Assembly (NCBI GenBank): GCA_947500385.1
Contig: CANMSA010000006.1
Coordinates: 62,001 to 126,000 of the forward strand
Length of the DNA: 64,000 nucleotides
Direction: 5' to 3'
Source of the DNA: an uncultured Flavobacteriaceae bacterium
GTDB lineage: Bacteria > Bacteroidota > Bacteroidia > Flavobacteriales > Flavobacteriaceae
How positions within the stretch are numbered: the first letter of the stretch is position 1; each line of letters opens with the position of its first letter. The notes beneath the pieces were generated by a model, which was not told the DNA's origin, ran no database searches, and saw only the letters and a program-made list of their open reading frames with translations. Both the position numbers and the translations under genes were made by a program. This document shows positions 5,094 to 49,403 of this stretch, piece by piece.

Positions 5094-5297
5094 CTTACAA
5101 AATTTTTATACCTACAAATAAAGCGATTTGACAACAGAATAAGGGCATTCGGTAACATTTAATTGCCAGCTCTGCATAAATAAGGGATTTTTAGGTTTAG
5201 AAGATAGTAATTATGAAAGAAATGAAAACATAGCTGTAGGAAAGAACAACTGCTTTTTTAATCCCAAATTGAAGTGTAGAATTAAATCAATCCCCCA

Positions 5298-7082
5298 TTG
5301 AAATCTAAAGACCTACTTTCCCGAATTACCCAAGTCGAGCATTTATTGAACGAGTTTTCCTTTGATGAATTGAGTTCCCACGAGGCGACACAGCTCAAAA
5401 AGACTTTTGACAATTTCAAATGCCAATTGGAGCAGAAGCTTCAAACTGCTGCCATTCCTTCCAAAACGACCAAGAAAACCCCATTAGCGGCCAAGGTAGA
5501 TCAACCGGCCGGCGCAACCAACAAGAGCGATAACAAAGAAGCCATGCTTGTGGCCCATGTGAGCCATGAAATACGCACCCCGTTAAACGGCATCATCGGT
5601 TTTGCGGATCTTTTGAAGGAAGATGCCCTTACCAGTCAACAGCTCGAAAGGGTCAATGCCATTCAAACGGCATCTTATTCTTTGATGGAGGTCATTAACG
5701 AGTTGTTGGAATTTTCGAAGCTGTCGGCTCAAATGGAGCCGTTTGAAGCGGTTCACTTTAACTTTTTCAGTTTGGTACGCGATGTACTGTACCTCTGCAA
5801 TACCCTTATTGTGAGCGATCAAGTGGCGCTGGAAGTCGATATCGACGCGGCCATTCCGGAAGTCTTGATCGGAGACCCGGCGAAGCTAAGCCAGATACTG
5901 CTCAATTTGCTGGGCAATGCCATCAAATTTGTGGAAAAAGGGGAGATACGCTTAACCATTGTTCCAAAGCGGGAGAAAAATGGAGAATGGCTGTTAGATT
6001 TTACCGTTGCGGATAGCGGTATAGGCATTTCGGATGCCCAATTACCTTTCATCTTTGAGTCCTATCGGCAAGTAGGTGAAAATACCAAGGAGAAGTTCGG
6101 AGGTACAGGACTAGGCTTGTCTATCGTAAAGCAAATTATTGAAAACTTGGGAGGCGATATCCAAGTGGCCAGCACCCTGGGGGAAGGCACCACTTTCAAC
6201 TTCCAATTGCTTTATAGGGTCGGGGATGCCGCCAAATTAACCGAAAGACGTACCGATCAACAATACTTACTGGAGGGAACAAAACTTCTCAAAGGAACCC
6301 AAATACTTGTTTTTGAAGATAATACGCTCAACCAGCGTCTTATTGAACAACGATTGCGAAAATGGGGCTGCATTGTTCATGTAACCGATAACGGATCTTA
6401 CGGACTTCATTTGCTTGAAGAGCATGCCATAGAGCTTGTATTGCTCGATTTGAGAATGCCGGGTATGGACGGTTTCGAGGTTGCCTCGCACATACGAAAC
6501 AACCCCAACGCCCGAATTAAAGAGGTACCGGTAGTTGCTCTAACGGCCGATTTTACGATTCAGGATAAGAAAAAGTCCAATGAATTCGGAATCGATGACT
6601 ATTTGCTAAAACCCTATAGTCCCGATGAGCTGCTGCTCAAACTCATAAAAAACAAAAATACCATGGACAACCTAGCCCCGAATGACGGAATCACTTTGAA
6701 CCCATCCATTACCGAGACATCTAAAACCGCTGAGGGGTTTAACCTAGATGCGATTCTAGCCGATTGCATGGGAGAAGTAGGCCTTCTGGAAGAGTTGGTA
6801 CGATTGTACAAGCAGAACGCCTTAGAGTTTATGGGAGCCGCAAAGCTGCACCTGCAACAAGGGGATTTTAAGTCATTGGAATTTGTTTTGCACAAAATTA
6901 AATCGGGCTTGGCCATGATGCAGACCCATGGTTTGTTTTCGATCGTGTCGCAAATGCATAGCTGTAGTAAAACCAACAAAGACCTGAAACATCTCAATTT
7001 CCTTTTTAGCTGTTTTTTGGAGGAATACCCTGTGGTAGAAGCAAAAATAGACAAAGAGTTAAAACGCCTAAAGGGCCTATAA
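5298..7082 (+). CDS. hybrid sensor kinase with receiver and Hpt domains
   Basis: The start is TTG at 5298; the first in-frame ATG would remove about 80 residues. The 594-residue product opens with a short coiled coil and has no recognisable sensor or membrane domain, so it is probably cytosolic. The HisKA box HVSHEIRTPLNG has the phospho-acceptor His90. The ATPase domain shows LLNLLGNAIKF, VADSGIGIS and FGGTGLGLS. A receiver follows with Asp384 (LVLLDLRMPGMDG). The C-terminus is an Hpt module with His532 (FVLHKIKSG). A full His-Asp-His relay therefore sits in one chain, and the next gene supplies a final Asp acceptor. It is the first gene of the exopolysaccharide-type operon and presumably controls it. 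Confidence 0.92.
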   Translation: MKSKDLLSRITQVEHLLNEFSFDELSSHEATQLKKTFDNFKCQLEQKLQTAAIPSKTTKKTPLAAKVDQPAGATNKSDNKEAMLVAHVSHEIRTPLNGIIGFADLLKEDALTSQQLERVNAIQTASYSLMEVINELLEFSKLSAQMEPFEAVHFNFFSLVRDVLYLCNTLIVSDQVALEVDIDAAIPEVLIGDPAKLSQILLNLLGNAIKFVEKGEIRLTIVPKREKNGEWLLDFTVADSGIGISDAQLPFIFESYRQVGENTKEKFGGTGLGLSIVKQIIENLGGDIQVASTLGEGTTFNFQLLYRVGDAAKLTERRTDQQYLLEGTKLLKGTQILVFEDNTLNQRLIEQRLRKWGCIVHVTDNGSYGLHLLEEHAIELVLLDLRMPGMDGFEVASHIRNNPNARIKEVPVVALTADFTIQDKKKSNEFGIDDYLLKPYSPDELLLKLIKNKNTMDNLAPNDGITLNPSITETSKTAEGFNLDAILADCMGEVGLLEELVRLYKQNALEFMGAAKLHLQQGDFKSLEFVLHKIKSGLAMMQTHGLFSIVSQMHSCSKTNKDLKHLNFLFSCFLEEYPVVEAKIDKELKRLKGL

Positions 7083-7463
7083 ATGATACCTATGCAAAAG
7101 AAAAGGCTTTTGTTGGCCGAGGATGACGAGCTGTTGGCTTCCCTTTTGAGTTTCAGGCTCAAAAAAGGAGGTTATGAGGTGTTGAATTCCTATGATGGGA
7201 AGCAAGTAAAGGAATTGCTAGGGCAGGGGTTGCCCGATATTATCGTGAGTGATATTATGATGCCCTATTTTTCAGGTATTGAACTGATCGATTATGTTCG
7301 CAATGAATTGGCTTCGAAGATTCCCATCATTATCATTTCCGCTGCCGGAAACGAAGAAAACGTATTAAGCGCCTTTGAACTGGGGGCAAACGATTTTATT
7401 TCAAAACCCGTAAGTCCTTCTGAACTAATGGTCAGGGTCGCACGGGAACTGAGTAAACCATAA
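7083..7463 (+). CDS. single-domain response regulator (CheY-like)
   Basis: The 126-residue product is a lone receiver. The acidic pocket is LLLAEDDE, the phospho-acceptor is Asp57 (IIVSDIMMP), and the conserved Thr/Ser and Lys positions are in IIIISAAG and FISKPVSPSEL. It has no output domain. It begins immediately after the kinase stop codon, so it is the natural end point of the kinase-receiver-Hpt relay. Without a DNA-binding domain it most likely acts by protein contact. The HEAT protein encoded one base downstream is the obvious candidate partner, but that is inference. Confidence 0.92.
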   Translation: MIPMQKKRLLLAEDDELLASLLSFRLKKGGYEVLNSYDGKQVKELLGQGLPDIIVSDIMMPYFSGIELIDYVRNELASKIPIIIISAAGNEENVLSAFELGANDFISKPVSPSELMVRVARELSKP

Positions 7464-7464
7464 T

Positions 7465-10400
7465 TTGAAGATAACCAACCTAACATACCACAACTATCCG
7501 CTCATAAGCGCTCCAAAGATCCATACGGATCTTTTGTGGGATCTTACACTCTTGTTCGTAAGCATCGCCGTTGTTTACTTCATTGCTATTTTCTTTTTCA
7601 AAAAACGCATCTCCAGAATCGCAAAAAAAAGAAAGGTCCTCAAAAAAGAGTTCTCACCCATGATCAGTGAATTTATCTTTTTGGAGGCTGATGCCACCAA
7701 GGATGAAAAAAGCAGGAATGTCGCATTAAAAGTGGAAATACGCGAATTGCTGAAAAACGACTTTAATCGTAAAACGGTGGCCGAAATACTGCTCGATTTA
7801 CGGAAAGATGTTGCCGGGAGTGCCCAAAAACAGTTGTTCGAACTCTATAAAGATTTAGGTTTGGACAAAGCTTCTTACAAAAAGCTACGCAGCTGGCGAT
7901 GGGAAACGATTTCCCAAGGTATTCGTGAATTGACAAAAATGCAGGTTGCCGAATCCTACAGTTTCATTACCCGGTTTATCAATGACAAACGCGGCACGAT
8001 ACGAAAACAAGCTGAGATGGCGGTGGTTACCCTAAAACCTGAAGGGCTTAATTATTTTTTAGATACCACTAAACACAGGATTTCGGAATGGCAGCAGTTG
8101 AAACTGATGGAAGTGCTAGCGAACAAAGAAAACTATGTGCCGCCCAGTTTCAAGGTTTGGCTAACTTCCAAAAACAAGTATGTGGTATTGTTCGCACTGC
8201 GACTCATCAAACATTATGATCAAAATGATGCCAATGCAACCATCATTGAATTGGTAAAGCACAAAAACAATCGAATTAAAAGAGAGGCCATTGACTGTAT
8301 CAACAGCTTTCACATTACGGATGCGCTGGAGACCCTGAAGACTGTTTTTTGGAAATGCACTCCCGATATTAAAATTGCCATCTTGGACGCCATCGGGAAT
8401 ATTGGAAAAGAAGCAGATATTGATTTTCTTCAACTTATTGAAAACAAGGAATATAGCTTCTCGGTGAGAAGTAAGGCTTTAGCAGCAATCAATATAATTT
8501 CACCGGAGACCATAATGCCCACGGAAGGCATATTGGATACCCAAGGGTATGAAGTTCCCCAAGATATCAGTTTGAAAAAGTTGGAGGTTATGGAACCGGA
8601 AAATTCATTGGACGAGTACGTGGAGAAATCGCCCATACGCCCAACGGATGAAAATGGGGATGTTTCTTCACAACCGGAAGAAACAGCACCCGTTGATGCA
8701 ATTGTGCAAAAGGAGATGCCATTAATGACCAGCGATTCAGATAACCCAGCGGTGCGGAAAATGGAAGAGAAGGTTATTCCGGATCCAAATGCAAACGATC
8801 AGGTAGCTGAAAACGAACCATCGGAAGAATGCGAACCTACCGTGCCAGAAGTGCCGCAGGAAGATGATAAAGCAGCCGCCTCACTTGCGGATTTACTCGA
8901 CACCATCGTGGTTGATGCCACACTGACCATAGGTTCAGAAGAACCGAACCCAAACAAAATAGCCCAAGATAAACCTGAAATGCCAAGCGACATGGAAGAC
9001 CTGCAACCCCTTGATGAAAATACGGAAGCACCGATCAACGATCCGGAAGAATCGAATGAATTTACAACTGATTTTATACCCCTAGTGGTAGATGCGTTGA
9101 ACACAGAGGAAGAAGTTGCGATGTCAGAACCAAAAAACGATATAGGAGCTATAGCAGAAATGCCCGTTTTTTATGAAGTAATAGACGTACCGTCAAAGGG
9201 CAATAATGCCGAAGCATCCGAGGTATTACGGTTTGATATTACCAAGGAGGACATGTATTTCATCCCACTGGTAACGGAAGATATTTCGATACCCATACAA
9301 CCACACCAGGGAGACGATGAAAAGAAAAGGACGGTGCTCGAAGGGATAGAGGTAATCTCTGAAGAGGTGAAGGGTGAGGAAAAAGAAATGACGGCCCATC
9401 AGATAAACATAGCGGAACTTGAGGTACTGTTTGAAGAAGTACGCAGGGAAGCACCCGACGGACCAATAGCAGGGATTCCTTTGCATGAAATACCGGTTGT
9501 CTATGAGACGATTGTAAACAATAAGAAAGCTGAAACGATCAAAAACCTACCAATGAAAGCAATAGATCCCTTAGAATTAACGGTCATTTATCAGGTAGTA
9601 CACGCTAGTTCATTTAATGGCTACGGGTCCGTTGAGGAATTGTTAGAGGCACATATTCCTCCGTCCGAACTTTCTCCAAAACTCCATTCCCAAGGAACAA
9701 AAAAACCTGTTTTTAAGTCTTTAGAAGAGGTTTTGGAAGCACAGTGTACTCCGGAATTGAGTAAAAATATGAAGGAAGGCCAAACATCAATGGCGACCGA
9801 GCCTCCTGCAACACAAGAAGCGGCAACCGTTGAAAAAACTTCCCAGGACGGGTTGAACGAAACGGAAGAGATCCGGATCGCTTTGGAAAGCCCCATGGAT
9901 GAGGAGAGCATTGTAGAAGAGGTCCCAACCACCGAAGCAGGGTTTGTTCCGAATACTGCAGAGGAAAAAGGGGTAAAAGAGGAGGAAGGTACTGCGGAAG
10001 ATACGGGGTTGAAGAAAGAAAGCACACGTTCAAAGGAAGAAGAACCTCAGGAACCTATTTTATCGGAAGAAACCATTGCGAACACCGAAGTGCAAGAAAG
10101 GCTCGAAACGACCGAAGAGGAAATCGAAGAAATCGGCACCATAGAATTGGAACTCACCGGAATGCCGGAATCGGTAGAAATGGAGGATGAAATCGCGGAG
10201 CAAGAGCTTCCTGATTGGTTGTTAGAAGAGATTGCGGAGCCCAATGTACGGTCTGTGAACAAAGATGAAATAAAAACAGAAGGTCCGGAATGGGAGGCGA
10301 AAGTGCCTAAAATGATGGATGATATTCAATATTATTTGCGGTATATACCCGAACCTGTGTTATATGACAGCGAAATTTCGGAAACCATGCAGCTTTTGGA

Positions 10401-11028
10401 CGATATTGAATTCTTTGGGGATGAGCGCGAACTTCCCTTGTTGGAAGAACTGATGTCGACGGAGAAGAAGGAAGTTACCCATGAACGGCTACAAGATATT
10501 ATAGCACGTTTTCGCGGCAACATACCACCAACGGACGATGGTATTTTTAAGCTTACACCACCTTACAGCATTTTTCAAGAGTTTTTTCGCCATTGTGATA
10601 CCGAGTCAAAATTGATCCTTCTGGCGGAGGTGACCGCTGTCGGTGACGAAAAGGAGGTGTATTTTCTAGAACGGCTCCTAGATGATCCCGAACCTAGAAT
10701 TCGCGCAAAAGCCTCCGAGACGCTGGCAATGCTTAAAGAACGGTTGGCCATAGCCAATCCAAGCGCGGAAATGGGTGCCGCCGCCAAAATCTATTCTGAA
10801 AGCGAAAAGATGAGCAATAGTGAATACCAGCAATTGCTCAACGAAATGCAGATTAATCCGCCGGTGGAGTCCGATATTTTTGAAATAGACTTTGAACTCT
10901 CCCCTGAAGGAGAAACCTATGCTGATGATGTGATCCGTGGTGTTAAGGAATCCCCTGACAGCGGCAATTCCTTTTTGAACATATTTAGAAAATTTAATAC
11001 AAAGTCACGATCAAAACGTAATGGATAA
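7465..11028 (+). CDS. membrane-anchored HEAT-repeat protein with a long acidic linker
   Basis: The start is a TTG one base after the receiver stop. The product has 1187 residues. A transmembrane segment lies at about 22-46, followed by a basic stretch (FFKKRISRIAKKRK), so the bulk should be cytoplasmic. Residues of about 70-345 are helical HEAT-like repeats. About 360-960 is a Glu/Pro/Thr-rich, low-complexity region with recurring hydrophobic patches. About 965-1187 returns to folded HEAT-like sequence (EVYFLERLLDDPEPRIRAKA). HEAT arrays bind proteins, so a scaffold joining the receiver to the glycosyltransferase is a reasonable guess. The last eight bases overlap the glycosyltransferase start, which suggests coupled translation. 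No enzyme motif was seen. Confidence 0.8.
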   Translation: MKITNLTYHNYPLISAPKIHTDLLWDLTLLFVSIAVVYFIAIFFFKKRISRIAKKRKVLKKEFSPMISEFIFLEADATKDEKSRNVALKVEIRELLKNDFNRKTVAEILLDLRKDVAGSAQKQLFELYKDLGLDKASYKKLRSWRWETISQGIRELTKMQVAESYSFITRFINDKRGTIRKQAEMAVVTLKPEGLNYFLDTTKHRISEWQQLKLMEVLANKENYVPPSFKVWLTSKNKYVVLFALRLIKHYDQNDANATIIELVKHKNNRIKREAIDCINSFHITDALETLKTVFWKCTPDIKIAILDAIGNIGKEADIDFLQLIENKEYSFSVRSKALAAINIISPETIMPTEGILDTQGYEVPQDISLKKLEVMEPENSLDEYVEKSPIRPTDENGDVSSQPEETAPVDAIVQKEMPLMTSDSDNPAVRKMEEKVIPDPNANDQVAENEPSEECEPTVPEVPQEDDKAAASLADLLDTIVVDATLTIGSEEPNPNKIAQDKPEMPSDMEDLQPLDENTEAPINDPEESNEFTTDFIPLVVDALNTEEEVAMSEPKNDIGAIAEMPVFYEVIDVPSKGNNAEASEVLRFDITKEDMYFIPLVTEDISIPIQPHQGDDEKKRTVLEGIEVISEEVKGEEKEMTAHQINIAELEVLFEEVRREAPDGPIAGIPLHEIPVVYETIVNNKKAETIKNLPMKAIDPLELTVIYQVVHASSFNGYGSVEELLEAHIPPSELSPKLHSQGTKKPVFKSLEEVLEAQCTPELSKNMKEGQTSMATEPPATQEAATVEKTSQDGLNETEEIRIALESPMDEESIVEEVPTTEAGFVPNTAEEKGVKEEEGTAEDTGLKKESTRSKEEEPQEPILSEETIANTEVQERLETTEEEIEEIGTIELELTGMPESVEMEDEIAEQELPDWLLEEIAEPNVRSVNKDEIKTEGPEWEAKVPKMMDDIQYYLRYIPEPVLYDSEISETMQLLDDIEFFGDERELPLLEELMSTEKKEVTHERLQDIIARFRGNIPPTDDGIFKLTPPYSIFQEFFRHCDTESKLILLAEVTAVGDEKEVYFLERLLDDPEPRIRAKASETLAMLKERLAIANPSAEMGAAAKIYSESEKMSNSEYQQLLNEMQINPPVESDIFEIDFELSPEGETYADDVIRGVKESPDSGNSFLNIFRKFNTKSRSKRNG

Positions 11029-12451
11029 CGATGTTTTTCAAATAGTCTTACAATATATAAACGCGGTGTTTTTCACGTTTACGGTGGTATTGTTTTCAAT
11101 GTTCACTATCATGGGCTATTTGTCAACTCGAAATTCGATCCATTATCGCAACAAAAATAGCTTCAGCGATCTTTCAAAGGTGATGGCGTCGCCTTTGGCA
11201 CCCAGTATTACCATCATTGCACCTGCCTATAACGAGGGGCTTACCATCGTAGAGAATATACGTTCGCTCATGTCGTTGCGCTATGTGAATTATGAGGTAA
11301 TGGTCGTAAATGATGGTAGCAAAGATGATACGCTTCAAAAGATGATCGATGCCTATGATCTTTATGTGATTGATCAAAAAATAGACCCAAATTGGAAATC
11401 AAAACCCATACGGGGTATTTACAAGTCCAAGCATCGCTCTTTCTCCAAACTCACCGTCATCGATAAGGAAAATGGAGGCAAATCAGATGCATTGAATACG
11501 GGGATGGCGCTATCATCGAACCAATATGTAGGCTGTATCGATGTAGATTGCCTACTATTGCCCGACGCTTTGTTACATGTTGTGAAGTCGTTTTACCAGC
11601 GTTCTGAAAAACGCGTAATTGCGGTAGGTGGCGTTATTCGTGTTGCCAATTCTTGCGTAATTCAAGGAGGGCAGTTAGAGGAAATACGGTTGCCTACGAA
11701 CTGGTTGGCACGTTTTCAACTGTTGGAATATACGCGATCGTTTATTCTGGGACGTATGGCCTGGGGACGCATTGATAGTTTGCTCATTATTTCAGGTGCC
11801 TTTGGCTTTTTCGACCGTGAGATCGCGATGGCCGTCGGGGGGTATGATACGAACACGGTTGGTGAAGACATGGAGATTGTTTTTCGGATGCGGCGATACA
11901 TGCACGACCGTAAGCTACCCTATACTGTGGAGTATATTCCAGATTCCCTTTGTTGGACAGAGGTGCCCGAAGATCTTAAAATTCTGGTAAACCAACGAGA
12001 TCGTTGGGCCAGGGGAAATTTGGAGACCTTAAATACGCATAGAGACATGTTCTTTAACTCCAAGTACGGCCGCTTGGGATTGATCAGTTATCCTTATTGG
12101 TTTTTCTATGAATGGTTGGCGCCGATACTAGAGTTCTTCGGCGTTATATCCATCGTGCTGTTTTATTACTTAGGAATATTAAATCTTAGTTTTTTCTTGG
12201 CCATAACGGCCGCCGTCTATATGTACTCGGTCATGTTTTCGTTTTACGCGATTTTATGGGATGTGTACTCGTACAACGAATACAAAAAAACGAAAGACAT
12301 TCTAATATTGATGTTCTGTGCCATTATAGAGCCTTTTACCTTTCATCCCATTGTGGTTTGGGCTGCGATTCGCGGGAATTACAAAAAACTATTTAAAATC
12401 AAATCGGGCTGGGGATCCCAAGTCCGAAAAGGGTTTGCAAAAGCAACCTAA
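11021..12451 (+). CDS. processive family-2 glycosyltransferase
   Basis: The 476-residue product has one or two N-terminal membrane spans (about 8-35), a cytoplasmic GT-A domain, and three or so spans at about 360-435. The GT2 motifs are intact: APAYNEG near 67, VVNDGSKDDT, DVD at 174-176, the acid pair in VGEDMEIVF (Asp283), and QRDRW at 325-329. The last is the hallmark of processive enzymes such as PgaC and cellulose and hyaluronan synthases. It should polymerise a sugar and thread it through the inner membrane. Substrate specificity cannot be read. Its neighbours are an LTA-synthase-like protein and an outer-membrane barrel, as expected for polymer export. Confidence 0.9.
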   Translation: MDNDVFQIVLQYINAVFFTFTVVLFSMFTIMGYLSTRNSIHYRNKNSFSDLSKVMASPLAPSITIIAPAYNEGLTIVENIRSLMSLRYVNYEVMVVNDGSKDDTLQKMIDAYDLYVIDQKIDPNWKSKPIRGIYKSKHRSFSKLTVIDKENGGKSDALNTGMALSSNQYVGCIDVDCLLLPDALLHVVKSFYQRSEKRVIAVGGVIRVANSCVIQGGQLEEIRLPTNWLARFQLLEYTRSFILGRMAWGRIDSLLIISGAFGFFDREIAMAVGGYDTNTVGEDMEIVFRMRRYMHDRKLPYTVEYIPDSLCWTEVPEDLKILVNQRDRWARGNLETLNTHRDMFFNSKYGRLGLISYPYWFFYEWLAPILEFFGVISIVLFYYLGILNLSFFLAITAAVYMYSVMFSFYAILWDVYSYNEYKKTKDILILMFCAIIEPFTFHPIVVWAAIRGNYKKLFKIKSGWGSQVRKGFAKAT

Positions 12452-12460
12452 ACCATTCGT

Positions 12461-14818
12461 ATGAATACAAGTGTCATAGATAGATATACCTTAAAACACT
12501 ACACCCGATTAATGATTTCATTTTTTGGTTGTTTGGTAGTGCTTTCTATTGCGCAATACAGCATACTCTATTTTAAAGGGGTTGTCGATAGTATTCTAAA
12601 TACCAGCTTTCTAATAGCCTTGGTGCATCAAATTGGTTTTGCCTCGATTACGGGGGTCATATTGGCCTTTCCTTTTAACTTCTGGGAAAATTTTAGACCC
12701 AGATACGGTTTTAATCTGGTGTTTGTGGCCTTGGGGCTTTTGCTGGTCACCGAAGCGATGTTAATTGCCTATTACTGTACCTCTTTGGTGCCCTTGGGTT
12801 CTGATATTTTAGGGTATAGTTGGGGTGATATCATGATTACCGTTTCAAGTTCTGGCGGTTTTATGATTGCGTTGTATCTACTGATCGCCATAGCGCTTTT
12901 GATCGCGTTGTTTTTTGGGCTGTATAAGCTTACCTCTAAATTCTACCATCGCATCAGCAGAATGTATCCTTTTACCATCATTCTTTTCTCGCTGTTCGTG
13001 GCCACCTTGTTCACCGAAGGAAAACCGATCAATCAAAATAAAACCCAATACCTCGCCCTAAATTTGTATTCCACTTCTACCGAAGACCATTCGTATGTAG
13101 CAGAAGTGGAGTATCCGCTGATTAAGCGACCTGAAATGGCCGATGTGTTGGGGGAATACTTCGAACTAAAAGAAACCAAACCCAACCTCGTATTCATTAT
13201 GGTAGAGGGGCTTGGGCGTGATTTCGTAGGGGAAGGGGCCGAATACGGCGGGTTTACGCCATTTTTAGATTCGCTCACGACCAAATCGCTCTACTGGGAA
13301 AATTGCTTGAGCAATACCGGACGTACCTTTGGGGTGATTCCTTCGTTACTGGGATCCTTACCATTTGGAAAAAGCGGTTTTATGGAGTTGGAATCGTATC
13401 CCAACAAGCTTACCCTCTACGGGATTCTGAAGAATAATGGTTACCATACCTCTTTTTATCAAGGGACCAACAGCTCCTTTGACAATGTGGAGAAATTCTT
13501 GAGAAGTGAAAATATTGATTTTGTATTGGATAAATCAGGTTTTGGTAAAAACTACCAAAAACAGGCGGAAGACGCCGCAGGTTCTTCATGGGGCTATCCG
13601 GATTTAGAACTGTTTAAGAAGAGTATGAGCTTCCCCAGGCAGGCCGCCCAACCAAGGATGGAGGTTTATATGACTATTAGTACGCACGAACCGTTTATAC
13701 CACCGCGAATGGATTTCTACAGCGGTGTAGTCAAAAAATGTATGCTCAAAGGCAATTTTGATCGGAAAAAACGCAAGGTAATCGAAAAGAACGATGGGGT
13801 CTTTGCCAGCCTCTTGTATACGGATGATGCGGTCAAATGGGTGTTCGACGCCTATAAAAAACAACCAAATTATGAGAATACCATTTTCATCGTAACCGGA
13901 GACCACAGATTGATCCCGATACCACAAAGAAACAACCTTTCCCGGTTTCATGTCCCCTTGATTATCTATAGTCCGTTACTCAAAAAAACAAGAAAGATGA
14001 GCTCGGTCTCGTCCCATTTCGATGTTACTCCAACCATTCTATCCTTATTGAACAATGCCTATGAAATGAAAATGCCCAAAAAGGTTGCGTGGATGGGAGC
14101 GGCCCTTGACATGAACGAAGGGTTCCGGTCGATCAAGGACATTCCCCTAATGCGTAATAAAAACGAATTAAAAGAGTTTGTAAGTGGCACGAGCCTTTAC
14201 ACCGATGGGGACGTGTTGGAAATCGATGAAAATATGGATTTAAGTACTTCTTTTGGTGGTAGTGCCAAAGTAGAAAGGCGATTGGAGGATTTTAAAGGGA
14301 TGAACGCCTATGTGACCATGAACAACAAGATCATCCCAGACAGCCTGTCTATTTTTAATATTCAAAAGGAAAAGTTTAAAGAAAGTGAGATCGTATGGGT
14401 CAATAGCAAATTTAATGGTAAAAACTTTGACAAAGCCTATATCACGGCAAGAGAGCTGGCCTTTGATAAAGATTATGAAAAGGCACTCTTGCTATGCCGC
14501 TTTATTCTATCGGAGGTTCCGGGACATATCGATACCAAGGTGTTAATGGGGAGGATCAATGCATGGAACGGCAAATACAATACGGCTGTTAAAATACTGA
14601 GGGAGTGCATTCAAATGGTGCCCGACTATGTAGACTCGTATGCCGCCTTGTTCGATGTGTATTTCTGGTCGGGTAGGAACAAAGCGGGATTTGAGCTGAT
14701 CGAAGAAGTACAACAAAATAGTTCGGGTGCCGATGAGATAAAAGATAAGATTGCAAGGGCACGACGGGAATACGGAAAACGAAAAGCAATTGCCGCTGCG
14801 GCCTTGAACAATAATTAG
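12461..14818 (+). CDS. LTA-synthase-like (sulfatase-fold) membrane phosphotransferase with C-terminal TPR
   Basis: The 785-residue product has about five N-terminal membrane spans (to ~190), then a periplasmic alkaline-phosphatase/sulfatase-fold domain. VFIMVEGLG carries metal-ligand Glu249. TGRTFGVIPSLLG has the presumed nucleophile Thr289. ISTHEPFIPP and IVTGDHRLIP match later metal motifs. LTA synthases and OpgB/EptA relatives use this fold to move phosphoglycerol or phosphoethanolamine onto glycans. The C-terminal ~120 residues add a TPR-like module (LMGRINAWNGKYNTAVKIL, 695 onward) that closely resembles one in the next gene product. I infer modification of the polymer made by the neighbouring GT2; hydrolase activity remains possible. 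Confidence 0.82.
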   Translation: MNTSVIDRYTLKHYTRLMISFFGCLVVLSIAQYSILYFKGVVDSILNTSFLIALVHQIGFASITGVILAFPFNFWENFRPRYGFNLVFVALGLLLVTEAMLIAYYCTSLVPLGSDILGYSWGDIMITVSSSGGFMIALYLLIAIALLIALFFGLYKLTSKFYHRISRMYPFTIILFSLFVATLFTEGKPINQNKTQYLALNLYSTSTEDHSYVAEVEYPLIKRPEMADVLGEYFELKETKPNLVFIMVEGLGRDFVGEGAEYGGFTPFLDSLTTKSLYWENCLSNTGRTFGVIPSLLGSLPFGKSGFMELESYPNKLTLYGILKNNGYHTSFYQGTNSSFDNVEKFLRSENIDFVLDKSGFGKNYQKQAEDAAGSSWGYPDLELFKKSMSFPRQAAQPRMEVYMTISTHEPFIPPRMDFYSGVVKKCMLKGNFDRKKRKVIEKNDGVFASLLYTDDAVKWVFDAYKKQPNYENTIFIVTGDHRLIPIPQRNNLSRFHVPLIIYSPLLKKTRKMSSVSSHFDVTPTILSLLNNAYEMKMPKKVAWMGAALDMNEGFRSIKDIPLMRNKNELKEFVSGTSLYTDGDVLEIDENMDLSTSFGGSAKVERRLEDFKGMNAYVTMNNKIIPDSLSIFNIQKEKFKESEIVWVNSKFNGKNFDKAYITARELAFDKDYEKALLLCRFILSEVPGHIDTKVLMGRINAWNGKYNTAVKILRECIQMVPDYVDSYAALFDVYFWSGRNKAGFELIEEVQQNSSGADEIKDKIARARREYGKRKAIAAAALNNN

Positions 14819-14832
14819 AGAAATACAAAAGA

Positions 14833-16146
14833 GTGATTTTTAAGCGACTTATATATACGACCTTGTTCTGTTTCCTGCTGCAGGTAAATTTTTCGAGTGC
14901 GCAGGAGCTTGCCTACAACGATGCCAGGGCCCTTGCCTTTGAAGGAGATTTGCCGGCTGCCAAGGGGTTACTGGTAGGTATGGAAGAGGATCATGTAGAA
15001 AATGGACGGTCGGTTTCTTTGCTTGGCAGAATTTATAGTTGGGAAGGGAACTATGAAAAAGCCCGTAAACTATTTAATCGGATTACCTCGGAAGACCGTA
15101 CAAATACAGATGCATGGCTTGCGGCCATTAAGAACGAGTTGTATGCAAAAAATGATGCCACGGCCTTAGGGCTGGCCAATAAAGCACTGTACTACCTGAA
15201 AGACCACCCAGAAATCGAACGGCTGAAGCAAGAAGCCATAGTGCGCATTGAAAACAAGGAATATCCACCCTTGCTTCCCGACGAGGGCATCGATTTCTCA
15301 AAAAGATCAAAGAAACGTTCAAAATCCAAAGTCGATGACGCTGCCCCGGTAGAGGAGGTAGCAGAGGAAGTAGTAGAAGAACCGGCCCCAAAAACCATTG
15401 TAGAAGACAACGTATTCAACAACCGGGTAGGGGTTCGCAATGCCTTTACTGTTTTTGATGCCATCTATGATCCAATGATTTATTCGAGCGTTTCGTATCG
15501 CAGACAAACCTTGGCGGGCAGTATCATACCAAGGATCAACTATAGCAACCGCCTTAACAAGCATGGCATTCAATATGAAATCGACTTTTATCCCAAGTTC
15601 TCAAAACGGTTTTATGCCTATCTGAACTATGGTTACTCCAGTGCTTCCATTTATCCAGGGCATAAAGTAGGCGGTGACCTTTATGCGAACTTGCCGGGGG
15701 CCTTCGAGTTTTCGGCCGGTGCCCGTTACATTAGCTTTGCAACGAAGAATGTTTCCGTGATTACCAACTCGTTGGGGCATTACAGGGGCAATTACTATTT
15801 CTCTTTACGCTCCTATATTACCCCATTACCCGATAACTTGACCCGCGTTTCCGGGAATTTATTGGTACGAAAGTACTTTAGGGATGGTGAGAACTTCTTT
15901 GGCGTCAATGTGGGTATGGGGTATTCGCCCGAGTTACGACAGCTGCGAGATGGCGATGAACTCCTAGCGGAAACCCTCTTGTATATAGAATCGCAACGGA
16001 TGAGCCTTCAGTATCAGTTTACTCCAAAGAAAAGCAAGAACATCTATATGGCGAATTTAGGGGTGTCTCGACAAGAGTTGTCCTTTGATACGGGCATGTT
16101 CTTTTGGTCTTTATCGGCGGGAATTACCTATAGCGTAAAGTTCTGA
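14833..16146 (+). CDS. TPR plus YaiO-family outer-membrane beta-barrel protein
   Basis: The start is a GTG 14 bases after the previous stop. The 437-residue product has a signal peptide (LFCFLLQVNFSSAQ). A TPR region spans about 25-140 (LLGRIYSWEGNYEKARKLF from residue 63), followed by a charged linker with KRSKKRSKSK and a Glu/Val-rich run. From ~190 onward it is alternating beta strands ending in a C-terminal Phe (LSAGITYSVKF), as in outer-membrane barrels. The pattern matches the YaiO family. A periplasmic TPR joined to a barrel is also how PgaA exports poly-GlcNAc, so this is the likely outer-membrane exit of the operon. Confidence 0.85.
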   Translation: MIFKRLIYTTLFCFLLQVNFSSAQELAYNDARALAFEGDLPAAKGLLVGMEEDHVENGRSVSLLGRIYSWEGNYEKARKLFNRITSEDRTNTDAWLAAIKNELYAKNDATALGLANKALYYLKDHPEIERLKQEAIVRIENKEYPPLLPDEGIDFSKRSKKRSKSKVDDAAPVEEVAEEVVEEPAPKTIVEDNVFNNRVGVRNAFTVFDAIYDPMIYSSVSYRRQTLAGSIIPRINYSNRLNKHGIQYEIDFYPKFSKRFYAYLNYGYSSASIYPGHKVGGDLYANLPGAFEFSAGARYISFATKNVSVITNSLGHYRGNYYFSLRSYITPLPDNLTRVSGNLLVRKYFRDGENFFGVNVGMGYSPELRQLRDGDELLAETLLYIESQRMSLQYQFTPKKSKNIYMANLGVSRQELSFDTGMFFWSLSAGITYSVKF

Positions 16147-16251
16147 TGACGAATAATCGATGAACTACATCGTTTAGAAGACCCTTAACAAATAGTTAAC
16201 CTTTCTATCCGGGGTTTTCACAACAGAATTAATTGGGTACACCACAATTTA

Positions 16252-16282
16252 TTGTTTTCAAAGAACGTTAATATTATGTTTA
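16252..16282 (+). promoter_or_regulatory. candidate Bacteroidota promoter for the tandem small ORFs
   Basis: TTG at 16252-16254 is followed, after exactly 20 bases, by TATGTTTA at 16275-16282. This fits the flavobacterial pattern TTG-N~19-TAnnTTTG with one mismatch at the last base. The first small ORF begins 75 bases downstream. It is a pattern match only. Confidence 0.4.
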
Positions 16283-16356
16283 TGATGTATTACTTGATAC
16301 CCATATCGGTAGTACCGAATCAAAAATCTTAAATATTAACTTAACCTAGAAACGGA

Positions 16357-16455
16357 ATGCTCTACGACACCTACGGAGAGGAATATCTAAATTTCCTTCA
16401 AGATCTAAACGAAATTTTAAGTTTAAACGAGTTGGTAGAGTTAGACTATATGTAG
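16357..16455 (+). CDS. small ORF 1 of a tandem pair (32 aa)
   Basis: An ATG at 16357 opens a 32-codon frame ending in TAG: MLYDTYGEEYLNF, then LQDLNEILSLNELVELDYM. It is acidic and probably helical, with no signal peptide. The core YLNFLQDLNEIL is nearly repeated in the second small ORF (YLNFIEDLNEIL), in the same position relative to the start and with different flanks. That is hard to explain unless both are translated. No family is recognised. It follows the exopolysaccharide-type operon, precedes a strong terminator and has a candidate promoter of its own. Confidence 0.6.
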   Translation: MLYDTYGEEYLNFLQDLNEILSLNELVELDYM

Positions 16456-16492
16456 TCTGGCCCTGCGTCCCGATTCCCTAAACCCTACAATT

Positions 16493-16594
16493 ATGGCTAA
16501 ACAAAATCCAGACAATGCAGCTTACTTAAACTTCATTGAAGACCTGAACGAAATCTTGACCGATTTTGAAATTAACAAATTAAACTATTCTTAG
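16493..16594 (+). CDS. small ORF 2 of a tandem pair (33 aa)
   Basis: An ATG at 16493, 37 bases after small ORF 1, opens a 33-codon frame ending in TAG: MAKQNPDNAAYLNFIEDL, then NEILTDFEINKLNYS. It shares the 12-residue core Y-L-N-F-[LI]-[QE]-D-L-N-E-I-L with ORF 1. Both then continue with a short acidic, hydrophobic tail containing a Tyr in the last two residues. No signal peptide or membrane segment is present. A bidirectional terminator starts about 20 bases after the stop. Function is unknown. Paralogy within the pair is the main evidence for coding. Confidence 0.62.
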   Translation: MAKQNPDNAAYLNFIEDLNEILTDFEINKLNYS

Positions 16595-16615
16595 GCCCTT
16601 TGAACCAACGCCTAT

Positions 16616-16652
16616 AAAAAAGACCCTAACTGTAAAAGCTAGGGTCTTTTTT
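16616..16652. terminator. bidirectional intrinsic terminator
   Basis: GACCCTA (16622-16628) pairs perfectly with TAGGGTC (16640-16646) around an 11-base loop. An A-run lies on the left and a T-run on the right, so the hairpin has a U-tract in both transcripts. It can serve the small ORFs on the plus strand and rpoD, which ends at 16671 on the minus strand. Confidence 0.85.
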
Positions 16653-16670
16653 ATTGGAGCCATTTAAGGG

Positions 16671-17534
16671 CTATCCCAAATAGGTTTTGAGCATTTTGCT
16701 ACGCGAATTGTGCCGTAGTTTGCGAATGGCCTTTTCCCGTATTTGACGTACCCTTTCCCTGGTAAGGTCGAAGGTGAGCCCTATTTCTGCCAGGGTCATT
16801 GATTGCTGGTCTCCGATACCGTAATACAACTTTACCACATCGGCTTCCCTTGGTGACAAGGTTTCCAAAGCGCGGTTAATTTCGGTATTTAAGGATTGTT
16901 GCATCAATATATTGTCTGGTTTGGGAGATTCCCCTGCACGCAGTACGTCATACAAATTGGAATCTTCCCCTTCCCGTAAGGGCGCATCCATCGATACATG
17001 CCGGCCAGAGTTCTTAAGCGATTGTTGCACTTCGTTTACGGTCATCTCTAATTCCTTGGCAATCTCTTCGGCCGAAGGAGGACGCTCATGCGCCTGTTCT
17101 AAATATGAAAATGTTTTTTTGATTTTATTGATAGATCCAATCTTATTCAAAGGCAGGCGCACCACGCGCGATTGTTCGGCGAGTGCCTGCAGGATCGATT
17201 GCCTGATCCACCAGACGGCGTAGGAGATAAATTTGAAGCCGCGGGTTTCATCAAAACGTTTTGCCGCTTTTACAAGGCCCACATTGCCTTCGTTGATCAA
17301 GTCGGGAAGCGTTAGTCCCTGGTTTTGGTATTGTTTGGCCACCGATACAACGAAGCGAAGGTTGGCCGTTGTTAATTTTTCTAAGGCGATCTGATCGCCA
17401 TCTCTAATTTTTTGAGCCAGTTCAACTTCTTCACTGGCGGTTATCAAGTCGATTTTACTGATATCTTGCAGATACTTATCGAGTGATTTTGATTCCCGGT
17501 TAGTTACCTGCTTGATAATCTTTAGTTGCCTCAT
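16671..17534 (-). CDS. rpoD: primary RNA polymerase sigma factor (RpoD/SigA)
   Basis: The 287-residue product has the short form of the Bacteroidota housekeeping sigma factor, which lacks the long N-terminal region 1.1. Region 1.2 is [20 protein letters not shown]. Region 2 contains [36 protein letters not shown] and the -10-binding helix [15 protein letters not shown]. Region 3 includes [14 protein letters not shown]. Region 4.2 is [20 protein letters not shown]. In this phylum RpoD recognises TTG/TAnnTTTG promoters rather than the E. coli consensus. The upstream region holds a duplicated 14-bp element (17594-17660) that may take part in its control. Confidence 0.96.
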
Positions 17535-17593
17535 ATATGCTTATTTGATTTTGGTATTGTACAAGTTCTCAGTATACATTTTTTAAAGGTCTT

Positions 17594-17660
17594 ATCCAAA
17601 GGATTTAAGGTATTATTATACATGTTTTATACCCATTTCGCGAATAATCCAAAGGATTTA
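17594..17660. repeat. 14-bp direct repeat upstream of rpoD
   Basis: ATCCAAAGGATTTA occurs at 17594-17607 and at 17647-17660, offset 53 bp (about five helical turns). Each copy contains the inverted pair ATCC-AAA-GGAT. The copies lie in the 189-base divergent region between rpoD and the FAD oxidoreductase gene, so a protein binding both could affect either gene. The repeat is certain; its role is inference. Confidence 0.5.
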
Positions 17661-17723
17661 GATCATTTAAAGCATATTCGTTCAGCTTGTATTATTTTTA
17701 CGAAAACAGGGATTTGATCGGAT

Positions 17724-18965
17724 ATGGCGAAACAAAAAATTGCAATTGTTGGAGCGGGGCTTAGTGGTTTAATAGCGGCAGTTTGTCTTGAAAAGCATGG
17801 GTTTTCTCCTACAATTTATGATAGTAGCGACCGCATCGGTGGACGGTTGCGCTCGGATATGTATGAAGGGGTCGCCTTGGATTATGGCTTTCAGGTGTTG
17901 TTGACGGCCTATCCCATGGCACAGAAGTATCTTGATTATGAACAGTTGGATCTGAAGCGGTTTCTTCCAGGTTCTTTGTTGTTCAATAAACAGAAACGTT
18001 CTAAAATTGGCGACCCTTTGCGGGCCGGGTCTTTTTTAATCCCCACTGTCTTCTCAAGGGTCGGTTCGCTGGGTGATAAGTGGAAGATATTTCGTTTAAC
18101 AAAAAGTTTAAAGGAAAAGACACTTCCCGAAATATTCAAATCCCCGGAAATGACCACTTTTCAGTTTCTTTTGAATCATGGTTTTTCAAAGCGGATCATC
18201 GCTTCCTTTTTCGTTCCTTTTTTTTCTGGAATATTTTTAGAGGAGCAATTGAATACCTCTTCGCGAATGTTCCAATTTGTGTTTAAGATGTTTGCCGAAG
18301 GGGATGCGGCCGTACCGGCGAACGGGATGCAGGAGATTCCCAAACAACTGTATGAAAGATTGAATGCCACTACTGTTCATTTCGAACAAAAGGCAACGAA
18401 GATTGAAGACACTACCATCCACTTCGAGAATGGAAACTCGGCCACCCACGATTTTATTCTTATTGCGACAGACCCATCCCTATTGTTAAAAGAGCTGGCC
18501 CCAACACCTGTACGGTGGCACAGTACTCAAACCCTCTACTTTAAAAGTACCTCCCCAAGCACCATTGGCGAGGCCATTATCGGCCTATTTTCGGATGCGG
18601 ATACTTTGGTGAACAACATTCATTACGTGACCGATGTACTTTCTGTACCCGGCGGTTCAAATCAGATACTTTCGGTTACGGTGGTGAAAGAACATGGACT
18701 TTCGGAGGTAGAATTGCTTGCGAAGGTCAAAACCGAACTAATGGAACATTGCGGGTTGGAGAATCTCGATTTGATTCGAAGCGATAGCATTCGGAAGGCG
18801 CTCCCTAATTTGACATCGGTTGCTTTGGAAAGTAGAATTACACAATACTCCGATAGTATTTTCTTGGCCGGTGACCACTTGGCGAATGGTAGCATCAATG
18901 CCGCCATGCGTTCAGGAGAGCTTGCCGCTAACGCCATTTTAAACCAAATACAACAACGCTCATGA
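17724..18965 (+). CDS. FAD-dependent amine-oxidase-like oxidoreductase
   Basis: The 413-residue product starts with a dinucleotide-binding motif, IAIVGAGLSGLIAAVCLEKH, then SDRIGGRLRSD, the FAD-contact segment of the flavin monoamine oxidase/protoporphyrinogen oxidase superfamily. The C-terminus has the second FAD motif (DSIFLAGDHLANGSINAAMR). It has no signal peptide, so it should be cytosolic. Substrate is not evident; relatives include carotenoid desaturase-like and PPOX-like proteins. Its stop overlaps the next start by four bases, so the pair is translationally linked. Confidence 0.85.
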   Translation: MAKQKIAIVGAGLSGLIAAVCLEKHGFSPTIYDSSDRIGGRLRSDMYEGVALDYGFQVLLTAYPMAQKYLDYEQLDLKRFLPGSLLFNKQKRSKIGDPLRAGSFLIPTVFSRVGSLGDKWKIFRLTKSLKEKTLPEIFKSPEMTTFQFLLNHGFSKRIIASFFVPFFSGIFLEEQLNTSSRMFQFVFKMFAEGDAAVPANGMQEIPKQLYERLNATTVHFEQKATKIEDTTIHFENGNSATHDFILIATDPSLLLKELAPTPVRWHSTQTLYFKSTSPSTIGEAIIGLFSDADTLVNNIHYVTDVLSVPGGSNQILSVTVVKEHGLSEVELLAKVKTELMEHCGLENLDLIRSDSIRKALPNLTSVALESRITQYSDSIFLAGDHLANGSINAAMRSGELAANAILNQIQQRS

Positions 18966-19471
18966 GCAAAAGGCAACTTAAAAAGTATTTGAACGACCTG
19001 CCTAAAAACGAATTGGAGGAGCAGATGCTGGATCTCTATCAGCGTTTCCCTGTGGTAAAACAATATTACGATTTTGTATTCAACCCCAAAGAAGAGAAAC
19101 TTATACAAGAGGCCAAAACCAAAATCTCGAATGAGTATTTCCCCATACGTCGAAAAAGACCCAAGGCACGGAGGTCGGTGGCCCAAAAGTTCATCAAGCA
19201 TTTTGTAAAACTGGGTATGGAAGCCCACCTGGTCGCGGATCTGATGCTGTACAATCTAGAAATCGCACAGACTTTTTCTACCAATCGCAACTTGCCGGAT
19301 AGCTTTTTCAAGAGCATGTTGAATTCTTTTGAAGAAGTGGTGCATTTTGTTTCGGTAGAAGGAGTATTGCCTGAATTTCAAAAACGTATTCTGACCGTAT
19401 ATGGGTTTGCCCAAACGGAAGAATGGCCTTTTGAAGAGGGTTTTTCGAGAGTTTTGGATAGCATTGATTAA
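18962..19471 (+). CDS. DUF6155-like conserved protein
   Basis: The 169-residue product begins MSKRQLKKYLNDLPKNELEE and contains FVFNPKEEKLIQEAKTKI and a basic RRKRPKARRS segment. This pattern resembles the DUF6155 family as I recall it. It looks wholly helical and cytoplasmic, with no signal or catalytic motif. The ATGA overlap with the FAD oxidoreductase upstream suggests one transcript. The hydroxyacid dehydrogenase gene follows 35 bases later. Function is unknown. Confidence 0.7.
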   Translation: MSKRQLKKYLNDLPKNELEEQMLDLYQRFPVVKQYYDFVFNPKEEKLIQEAKTKISNEYFPIRRKRPKARRSVAQKFIKHFVKLGMEAHLVADLMLYNLEIAQTFSTNRNLPDSFFKSMLNSFEEVVHFVSVEGVLPEFQKRILTVYGFAQTEEWPFEEGFSRVLDSID

Positions 19472-41835: not shown

Positions 41836-41851
41836 GGATAAGATTCCTGCC

Positions 41852-42358
41852 CTAGGAGTTTAAGAAAAGCCCCGTATCCGAACACTGTTTTGATACGGGT
41901 TTTTTTTGCGTCGATTTTGTGCCTCGAAAACGTATAAAACGATAAAAGTATCTGAAATTGCCATTGTACCATATGGCAAAAATAAAGCTGGTATATATAA
42001 TCCACTCAGGGAGCATGGGCAACGCGTTCATATATGTTTTTAAAACGAGCACCCCTAAGGCAGTTAACGAAATTGCCAACGAAATCCATGTTCTCTTATC
42101 TTTCCTATTTAAAATAATCAGCAAAATGATCATCATTCCCATAAACGGTTTGGCATGGAGCAGTATGGGAACTAATTGTGCATTTTCGATATCAAAAAAT
42201 AGCACCACAGCACTCATATACGCGGTAAGACATAAAGGGCATTTGGGAATCAATATCAGTAAAACAGTGGAGAGGAAAGACATAGACCCATTGGCACCCG
42301 AGTTTTTTGAAGGTGCCGCCATCTTCGTTTTACAACAGGCGGTTTTTGCAGTTTTCAT
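41852..42358 (-). CDS. small membrane protein with a PKCPxC motif
   Basis: The 168-residue product begins MKTAKTACCKTKMAAPSKNS and has about four membrane spans, the first preceded by IPKCPLCLTAYMS. The Cys-rich N-terminus suggests metal or thiol chemistry, but no family is firmly recognised; a remote MerC-like relation is possible. The start lies nine bases after the moeA stop, so it is probably the third gene of a moaA-moeA transcript. The last ~10-15 codons run through the hairpin at 41869-41907, which acts as the terminator of the convergent hydroxylase operon. Confidence 0.65.
   Translation of the reverse strand: MKTAKTACCKTKMAAPSKNSGANGSMSFLSTVLLILIPKCPLCLTAYMSAVVLFFDIENAQLVPILLHAKPFMGMMIILLIILNRKDKRTWISLAISLTALGVLVLKTYMNALPMLPEWIIYTSFIFAIWYNGNFRYFYRFIRFRGTKSTQKKPVSKQCSDTGLFLNS
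41869..41907 (+). terminator. intrinsic terminator after the IorAB-like genes
   Basis: CCCGTATC (41871-41878) pairs exactly with GATACGGG (41892-41899), followed by eight T. It lies 34 bases after the large-subunit stop. On the other strand the same bases are the last codons of the membrane-protein gene, so the hairpin is inside a coding region there. Confidence 0.8.
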
Positions 42359-42367
42359 GAAGTGAGA

Positions 42368-43591: not shown

Positions 43592-44567
43592 CTATACTGC
43601 TCATGCTTTGTAGTGCCTCTGATTTATTTTTACGCTGTTGCTCAGCTTCAAATCCATCTTTGGGCTTTAAACGAACAATTTCCCGAAATTTATCGGCCAA
43701 TTCATCGTCGGTAACCCCCGTTCGCATATAATCACGAATATTGAAAACCCCATCATCATACAAACAGCTCTTGATTTCACCTTTGGAAGAAATTCGTAGT
43801 CTGTTACAGGTGTTGCAAAAGCTCCGTGTGAAGGCGGCAATAACTCCTATATTTCCCCGATAGCCTGGTACGTGTAGTAAATTTGCAGTATCCCCATGGC
43901 TACTGGGAAGTGGTTTCATAGCGGGGTAACGGGTTTTTAGATCAGCATGGATATCGCGTGCGCTGTACATTTCTATATTTTCCTTATACCCGCCGTTAAA
44001 TGGCATTTCTTCAATAAAACGAACATCTACAGGATGTTCTTTGGCCAATTCCGCCAAGGGAATAATATCTTGGGTATTGATGCCCTTCATAATCACTGCA
44101 TTCAGCTTTACTTTGAAGCCATTGTTAACCAGGAGATGAAAAGTCTGTAGCACCTTTTCAAAATCATTGCGTCTGGTGATTTTATGAAAACGTTCTGCGT
44201 CCAAAGAATCGATGCTCAGGTTTATTTTGGTAATCCCCAAGGCTTTTAATCGCACTATATGTTTTTGCAGCAAAGTACCGTTGGAAGTGATGTGAATGGA
44301 ATCATACGCTGCTAATTTGGCGGTATTCTCCAATAATTGCATAAAGTCTTTTCTTATAAAGGGCTCCCCACCGGTAAAACGTACTTTGCGAAACCCTAAT
44401 CCTCCTAAAACCCTAAGGAGTCGGGTTATCTCTTCGTAGCTAAGCAAGTGTTTTTTAGGCTCGTACGGGATACCTTCCGCGGGCATGCAGTAAAAACAAC
44501 GGAGGTTACAACGGTCGGTAACGGCGATGCGAACATAATCGATTGTTCTGTTATAAGAGTCTTGCAT
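43584..44567 (-). CDS. moaA: GTP 3',8-cyclase
   Basis: The 327-residue product carries the radical-SAM motif Cx3Cx2C in VAVTDRCNLRCFYCMP-like sequence near the N-terminus. VRFTGGEPFIRKDFMQLLE provides the SAM-contact GGEP. The C-terminal second cluster is FCNTCNRLRISSKGEIKSCL, the Cx2Cx13C pattern specific to MoaA. It converts GTP to 3',8-cyclo-GTP, the first step of molybdenum-cofactor synthesis. The usual C-terminal GG dipeptide is present (SSIGG). It is first in the moaA-moeA transcript and divergent from xdhC; moaC, moaD and moaE are not in the window. Confidence 0.96.
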   Translation of the reverse strand: MQDSYNRTIDYVRIAVTDRCNLRCFYCMPAEGIPYEPKKHLLSYEEITRLLRVLGGLGFRKVRFTGGEPFIRKDFMQLLENTAKLAAYDSIHITSNGTLLQKHIVRLKALGITKINLSIDSLDAERFHKITRRNDFEKVLQTFHLLVNNGFKVKLNAVIMKGINTQDIIPLAELAKEHPVDVRFIEEMPFNGGYKENIEMYSARDIHADLKTRYPAMKPLPSSHGDTANLLHVPGYRGNIGVIAAFTRSFCNTCNRLRISSKGEIKSCLYDDGVFNIRDYMRTGVTDDELADKFREIVRLKPKDGFEAEQQRKNKSEALQSMSSIGG

Positions 44568-49372: not shown

Positions 49373-49403
49373 TCAAAAAGAGTTTTAAGTTGTATCAAAA
49401 CCT

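Follow-up and report, generated by a model that had tools for sequence, protein, structure and literature searches.

How might a bacterium in whose genome neither a GGDEF nor a PilZ domain is found switch on the making of an exopolysaccharide, when the synthases of such polymers are largely, though not universally, controlled by cyclic di-GMP (c-di-GMP)? The question is raised by a stretch of 64,000 nucleotides from an uncultured marine Flavobacteriaceae bacterium (GCA_947500385.1, contig CANMSA010000006.1, positions 62,001-126,000 of the forward strand), hereafter the window, in which six open reading frames (ORFs), all on the + strand, occupy positions 5298-16146. These genes, designated A to F, encode in this order a hybrid histidine kinase, a lone receiver, a HEAT-repeat protein, a membrane family 2 glycosyltransferase (GT2), an enzyme resembling lipoteichoic acid (LTA) synthase and a YaiO-family barrel protein. 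The reading put forward here, with moderate confidence, is that they form a synthase-dependent exopolysaccharide secretion system in which the HEAT protein reads a phosphorelay and acts on the synthase. The secretion of a synthase-made polysaccharide appears likely from the sequences, and direct control through the receiver and the HEAT protein is slightly favored over its contrary; as a whole, the compact gene set would probably serve the synthesis, modification and export of a sugar polymer. A first-pass annotation had described six tightly packed genes, which the ORFs and the Pfam and NCBIfam domains bear out, the distances between consecutive genes being 0, 1, -8, 9 and 14 bases.

The gene order recurs well outside this genome, its conservation across Bacteroidota being a check that the annotation had proposed. 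A scan of named genomes with the GT2 alignment, in which the nearest relatives of the window's GT2 belong to Maribacter and other Flavobacteriaceae, yielded the best 80 of 469 relatives, all Bacteroidota judging by their titles, which together with the window make up 81 loci. Besides the window, 18 of the 80 relatives show all six genes in this order, one of them (L039) with an LTA ORF that is shortened, and eight further loci carry the last five genes in order. The HEAT gene stands immediately upstream of the GT2 gene in 78 of the 81 loci, the three exceptions consisting of L048 and L106, at or near contig ends, and L073, where a HEAT gene is present with an overlapping start call. In view of the exact order in these loci and of the near-universal HEAT-GT2 pair, the arrangement is not a matter of chance. 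A receiver protein of less than 330 residues occurs upstream within 6 kb in 75 loci, in which it adjoins HEAT or is separated from it by YaiO; among the six other loci, contig ends truncate L046, L048, L106 and L108, a larger receiver protein is encoded at L073, and L105 has none. YaiO is in reach in 77 loci and an LTA-like gene in 48. In alternative arrangements YaiO separates the receiver from HEAT or is encoded on the opposite strand; L081, from a strain titled F. johnsoniae CI04, has the order kinase-receiver-YaiO-HEAT-GT2. The HEAT-GT2 pair is the core of the locus, receiver and YaiO are its usual companions, and kinase and LTA-like gene vary. The idea of the six genes as one system holds for the processive-type synthase with its exporter built of tetratricopeptide repeats (TPRs) and a barrel, but not for a fixed six-gene unit. 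At L057 (about 15430-19200) a second HEAT-GT2 set follows immediately downstream of the first, and second HEAT and GT2 matches within one genome also occur in G041, G059, G180, G188, G282, G310 and G371.

In an even sample of the phylum, comprising 392 genomes (GT2 threshold E 1e-60), the synthase occurs as 110 copies in 99 genomes and 54 of 179 genera, and YaiO in 98 genomes, 97 of them common to both families (Fisher p 5.6e-89, a value calculated as if the genomes were independent, although they are not); of 102 YaiO copies, 91 have a GT2 at a distance of up to 10 kb. A HEAT profile match is located at most 3.5 kb upstream of 77 of the 110 copies, the other 33 showing none at E 1e-8. Thirty-one of these 33, together with 27 other GT2 loci, were fetched as 58 loci (L112-L169, of which L159 duplicates L092, some genomes contributing two), and a widened profile, which included divergent members and was built from the same loci it scored, recovers 30 of the 31 earlier misses and finds HEAT upstream of GT2 in 57 of the 58 loci altogether. 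Only at L130, where GT2 is broken and close to a contig end, was none found. Upstream of GT2, Pfam independently recognizes HEAT repeats at L120 and L126, and at L128 with a score under its cut-off; at L127, the protein preceding the YaiO-like neighbor of GT2 was assigned to no Pfam family. Of the 98 HEAT matches in the sample 21 do not adjoin a GT2; of the latter, 20 score weakly (36 to 49 bits) and resemble other HEAT proteins, and the remaining one (G397:C21) is strong, with 121 bits, on a contig other than that of the GT2. Also fetched were a short extra stretch (L171) and L170, which carries a distant GT2 paralogue of 1134 residues with no HEAT match within the fetched stretch. The GT2 tree, calculated for 123 of 139 rows by a short search with one very long outgroup, is weakly rooted.

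Gene D (11021-12451), assigned from Pfam, NCBIfam and conserved residues, has PgaC/IcaA as its best NCBIfam match, at 140 bits under a family cut-off of 422. It possesses D98, D174xD176, E282-D283 and Q325-R326-x-R328-W329, which correspond to the DxD, ED and QxxRW motifs of processive membrane glycosyltransferases; residues N71, E72, D98, D174, D283, Q325, R326 and W329 are kept in all 140 aligned rows (137 distinct) and D176 in 139. A single match to this GT2 was found in the window's genome, D itself, and likewise one to the YaiO family. The assignment of D as a processive-type synthase is supported by this set of residues, and the enzyme would polymerize a hexose or hexosamine chain and extrude it through the inner membrane.

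Its constant partner, gene C (7465-11028, with a TTG start codon as called, so that the true start may differ), encodes 1187 residues, which were assessed by Pfam, AlphaFold, Foldseek and hydropathy. The description of C as a HEAT protein stands as to the presence of HEAT but not as to its extent, since most of the chain is something else: the first 350 residues or so comprise a membrane helix and a predicted solenoid, behind which come an acidic linker (25% D+E over the 612 residues cut out) and, at the C-terminus, a weak HEAT match of 22.7 bits, just below the cut-off. The AlphaFold model of residues 1-351 (pLDDT 92.7, pTM 0.84) shows a solenoid and, N-terminal to it, a long helix at 21-71; for this model Foldseek returns armadillo/HEAT proteins, many of them designed, and the PP2A scaffold, a likeness of a general kind. 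Residues W209, Q211 and N237 of the HEAT protein are conserved. The helix of C is followed by a basic stretch and predicted to run from outside to inside (N-out/C-in); the side after the helix is the more basic one in 120 of 133 homologues, so that the HEAT solenoid is probably cytoplasmic, although the hydropathy test found no helix in 5 of 138 homologues. A search for tandem repeats in the gene gave nothing informative.

Upstream of C, gene A (5298-7082, 594 residues) encodes, according to Pfam, motif residues and hydropathy, a kinase with HisKA, HATPase, receiver and HPt domains, the latter exactly at the cut-off with 24.6 bits, and without any membrane segment. Gene B (7083-7463, 126 residues) consists, by Pfam and alignment, of a receiver domain only, devoid of an output domain, in which D57 and K108 are invariant among 33 aligned homologues. 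The acceptors located by motif, H89, D382 and H531 of A and D57 of B, complete the His-Asp-His-Asp set of a phosphorelay, along which phosphate would pass from A, via its own receiver and HPt, to B; phosphorylated B would then be read by the membrane-anchored C, which would turn the synthase on or position it. Out of 50 operon kinases listed (a number that includes the window's), eight others than the window's were scanned; all eight are of the HisKA-HATPase-receiver type and seven have an HPt, and their input domains differ, being PAS, CHASE3 or GAF. Alternatively, the HEAT protein might be a subunit that assembles or positions the synthase constitutively, while the phosphorelay acts elsewhere, on transcription or gliding, and merely shares the operon; this seems unlikely, although its probability is not negligible. 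HEAT solenoids are general scaffolds, and HEAT keeps its place beside GT2 where the fetched stretch shows no receiver or has it downstream (L156, L162, L169 and the loci labelled f32); against this stand the upstream occurrence, in the 75 loci, of a receiver without output domain (L073 having it in a larger protein), and its persistence while the kinase varies.

In the window's genome, which measures 6.03 Mb and is 99.86% complete, no GGDEF and no PilZ domain was found, and c-di-GMP control is rejected there on this ground; the same searches on 14 control genomes detected GGDEF in eight and PilZ in five. Receiver and HEAT protein would stand in for c-di-GMP, as the first-pass annotation had proposed, and this fits the window's genome and many of its relatives but not all of them. 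Within the phylum sample GGDEF occurs in 189 of 392 genomes, the window's genome ranking with the 203 that lack it, and is rarer among GT2 carriers (28 of 99) than among other genomes (161 of 293), leaving 71 carriers without. Fourteen of the 28 GGDEF-bearing carriers encode a GGDEF domain at 6 kb or less from GT2, the other 14 having none that close; 15 of the 56 GGDEF matches listed are of this kind, the calculation leaving aside the four weakest ones, situated on other contigs. At the f28 loci L116, L122, L132 and L133, a receiver-GGDEF-receiver protein, whose domain order was read by Pfam in L116 and L122 only, fills the receiver slot directly before HEAT-GT2 and has lost its GGDEF motif. 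At L115, L119, L120 and L126, a GGDEF protein with an intact motif lies upstream of a normal receiver, whereas at the f32 loci such an intact protein is located near GT2 with no receiver in reach, downstream in L129, L130, L134, L135 and L136 and upstream in L137. In these other lineages the GGDEF protein, present instead of or besides the receiver, would presumably act on the HEAT-GT2 pair. Owing to its presence at the same locus in some deep lineages, the replacement of c-di-GMP by a receiver is not general. The proximity of GGDEF to GT2 and the motif kept in several carriers could suggest that c-di-GMP controls the system after all, the receiver being accessory, but this is highly improbable considering the lack of GGDEF in the window's genome and in most carriers, its lower frequency in carriers, the motif lost in the receiver slot of the four f28 genomes, and the 28 GGDEF-bearing carriers, where PilZ gave no match above the cut-off and one below. 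These patterns of receiver, dead GGDEF and intact GGDEF leave HEAT-GT2 constant and the input variable, so that the pair looks like a core with exchangeable inputs.

At the other end of the operon, gene F (14833-16146) belongs to the YaiO family according to both PF19413 (217 bits for a cut-off of 23.9) and TIGR04390 (187 for 32 bits). The structure model (pLDDT 86.6, pTM 0.59) predicts TPRs at residues 36-140 approximately and a 14-stranded barrel at 197-436, i.e., the organization of a TPR exporter with an outer-membrane barrel. Among the Foldseek matches, PelBC ranks first, BcsC (9b8a) second and the polysaccharide secretin 4y25, which is taken to be PgaA, fifteenth; the listed sequence matches of the YaiO alignment to solved structures cover the TPR part only. 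On this predicted fold and on its co-occurrence with the synthase, F would be an exopolysaccharide exporter, the TPRs guiding the chain and the barrel exporting it. Among the matches listed in the open-licence literature no study is devoted by its title to the YaiO family, for which the locus suggests a role.

Between synthase and exporter, gene E (12461-14818) shows five membrane segments by hydropathy and an LtaS/sulfatase-fold domain at residues 241-531, identified by Pfam, NCBIfam and matches to sequences of solved structures. Its description as LTA-synthase-like is confirmed for this domain but had left out a C-terminal TPR tail, which scores 25.4 bits at a cut-off of 25 and matches the TPRs of the YaiO profile. 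The tail occurs in 29 of 32 separate LTA genes adjoining YaiO on the same strand, in one of five other separate LTA genes and in none of 11 GT2-LTA fusions. The catalytic set E249, T289, H409, D481 and H482, presumed to be equivalent to the catalytic positions of LtaS, would provide the metal ligands and the nucleophile of an alkaline-phosphatase-fold phosphotransferase: out of 61 rows of the family, 58 have Thr or Ser and none Cys at 289, 60 have Glu or Asp at 249, 59 keep H482, and D481 and H409 are each kept in 49, the other 12 lacking them. The catalytic domain aligns with 3lxq (4.4e-18) and 2w8d (3.6e-10), and a function as a sulfatase is rejected because of residue 289. From these residues, E probably transfers a phospho-alcohol group onto the chain, at the outer side of the inner membrane; in our judgement, phosphoethanolamine is at least as likely a substituent as the phosphoglycerol-like group suggested by the first-pass annotation.

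The kinship of E with LTA synthase and its fusion to GT2 in 11 of the 81 loci (L051, L060, L064, L066, L075, L078, L080, L085, L090, L091 and L092, with about 1120-1160 residues) could indicate a short or lipid-linked glycan, teichoic-like or a glycolipid, finished by this enzyme, YaiO being an outer-membrane anchor or enzyme. Such a product is quite unlikely, given the QRxRW of processive synthases kept in D, the resemblance of YaiO to exopolysaccharide exporters and the 33 loci with no LTA-like gene in reach.

Returning to phosphorelay-governed exopolysaccharide secretion, several observations weigh against it. Of the 58 loci L112-L169, 45 have a receiver and 13 have none in reach; seven of the latter are f32 loci, and four (L130, itself an f32 locus, L147, L152 and L168) are cut by contig ends. 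Some GGDEF domain is present in the 28 carriers mentioned, and the putative modifier is missing from the 33 loci just cited. In addition, ordinary porins score close behind the polysaccharide exporters in the Foldseek search of F, OmpG entries having the highest TM-scores by target length (0.59-0.60) among the 50 rows shown, and the 14 predicted strands of F are fewer than the 16 of the PgaA and BcsC barrels.

An optional part of the locus, the LTA-like enzyme varies in step with YaiO, rather than the synthase, within the Maribacter clade. The comparison covers 17 complete loci, 4 of 21 having been dropped as broken or cut, for which the mean identity of GT2 amounts to 80%. Nine of the LTA-like proteins form a close group of 65-92% identity, and the other eight share 30-55% with this group and with one another, except for the pair L031/L032 (91%). 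The identities of LTA-like protein and YaiO covary with a Spearman coefficient of 0.84 (0.83 as a partial correlation that controls for GT2, receiver, HEAT and kinase), compared to 0.36 for LTA with GT2 and 0.53 for YaiO with GT2, and none of 2000 permutations, which ignore relatedness, was as high. This fits a functional matching of modifier and exporter, or the simple co-transfer of neighbors. At single loci lacking the LTA-like gene, other genes occur as anecdotal replacements in the modifier slot: a CotH-kinase family gene between YaiO and HEAT at L105 (7476-8792) and, at L093, a weak polysaccharide-deacetylase match, below cut-off, in the same position. A weak GH16 match, also below cut-off, was seen among the neighbors at L094; the remaining neighbors scanned at LTA-less loci are housekeeping or regulatory genes.

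The acidic linker of C carries short motifs in the Maribacter clade. The pattern F[LI]P followed by two hydrophobic or similar letters occurs in 18 of 20 linkers, with 32 copies versus 0.15 in shuffles and a density of 5.9 per 1000 residues of linker versus 0.04 in unlabelled proteins of the loci, and a second, VxYE-like pattern occurs 12 times versus 0.77. Three of the 20 linkers are not independent, as both patterns were derived from them by eye, and an earlier, stricter pattern had matched only 3 of 14 linkers. The window's linker displays FIPLV and VxYE-like motifs, and the F[LI]P repeats are situated at about 8500-10425 of the window and in L031-L049 and L104; they are possibly a multivalent binding motif. 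A broader reading can be advanced tentatively, the balance tilting somewhat against it as a whole: the HEAT solenoid might be a phylum-wide, membrane-anchored synthase adaptor, a c-di-GMP-free switch combined with a separate modifier-exporter cassette, that reads exchangeable inputs, namely a phosphorylated lone receiver in most of the bacteria concerned and, in some deep lineages, a receiver-dead-GGDEF fusion or an intact protein of the diguanylate-cyclase type, while the linker with its repeated FLP-V motifs could cluster the synthases or inhibit them in the Maribacter clade. If true, it would represent a direct post-translational switch on a processive glycosyltransferase without c-di-GMP. 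The locus, with its 99 carriers among 392 genomes, is also a candidate for the making and switching of matrix polymers in the GGDEF-less bacteria of the phylum (203 of 392).

The general kind of system is known, whereas the regulatory core is undescribed as far as the open-licence literature searched shows: no description of the system is found among the matches listed there, subscription journals and bioRxiv lying largely outside, and no paper that associates YaiO with HEAT repeat, glycosyltransferase and Bacteroidetes was found in that literature. In the Pga system for poly-N-acetylglucosamine, c-di-GMP acts at PgaC-PgaD and PgaB is a deacetylase. The six genes resemble PgaABCD in their processive-type GT2, best matched by PgaC, and in their TPR-barrel exporter, for which 4y25 is among the Foldseek matches, but differ from it in having HEAT and receiver at the place of c-di-GMP control and in the strand number of F. 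Membership is rejected since D misses the PgaC equivalog cut-off and no polysaccharide deacetylase domain occurs among the six genes. Cellulose systems of the E. coli type, with the exporter BcsC and the phosphoethanolamine transferase BcsG, similarly combine a GT2, a TPR-barrel exporter and a membrane-bound modifier of the alkaline-phosphatase fold, but the modifier here has a TPR tail or, in relatives, is fused to GT2; membership in the Bcs group is rejected, D scoring 27.5 bits for a CelA cut-off of 699 and PilZ being missing from the window's genome. E is likened to LtaS and VP1736 by the alignment over its catalytic domain and by the Thr at the nucleophile position; it differs in its Gram-negative operon and its TPR tail, and with 54 bits for an equivalog cut-off of 970 it is rejected as an LtaS. 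The E. coli cluster yaiO-yaiX-yaiP-yaiS also has a YaiO-family barrel adjoining a GT2 and putative modifying enzymes, but HEAT, receiver and LTA-like genes are not annotated there; its YaiO, of 257 residues, can be aligned with F only weakly, and for YaiP the identity is 24% over 229 columns. In E. coli K-12 (L172, 5845-7873), IS2 interrupts yaiX between yaiO and yaiP. FpgA of F. psychrophilum is a type-2 glycosyltransferase of 319 residues in another gene context, and kinship with it is rejected (PMC4293000). Kinship with pep25/lbp26 of F. collinsii is rejected as judged from their names (PMC9950754).

Around the operon, sigma-70-like promoters were not more frequent than in shuffles (18 versus 22.1), and the pattern TANNTTTG, which is assumed to be the Bacteroidota -7 element, did not exceed chance and was absent from 5094-5297; searches with Rfam and PHROGs gave nothing informative. 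An opposite-strand gene of 287 residues, presumably sigma-factor-like, comes after the operon at 16671-17534 of the window, and an opposite-strand ORF of 287-288 residues occurs at most two genes after the operon in 15 of 20 Maribacter-clade loci, so that the position of the operon seems conserved. Farther downstream, positions 39592-58513 of the window contain molybdopterin-enzyme genes together with XdhC/CoxI- and CoxE-like genes.

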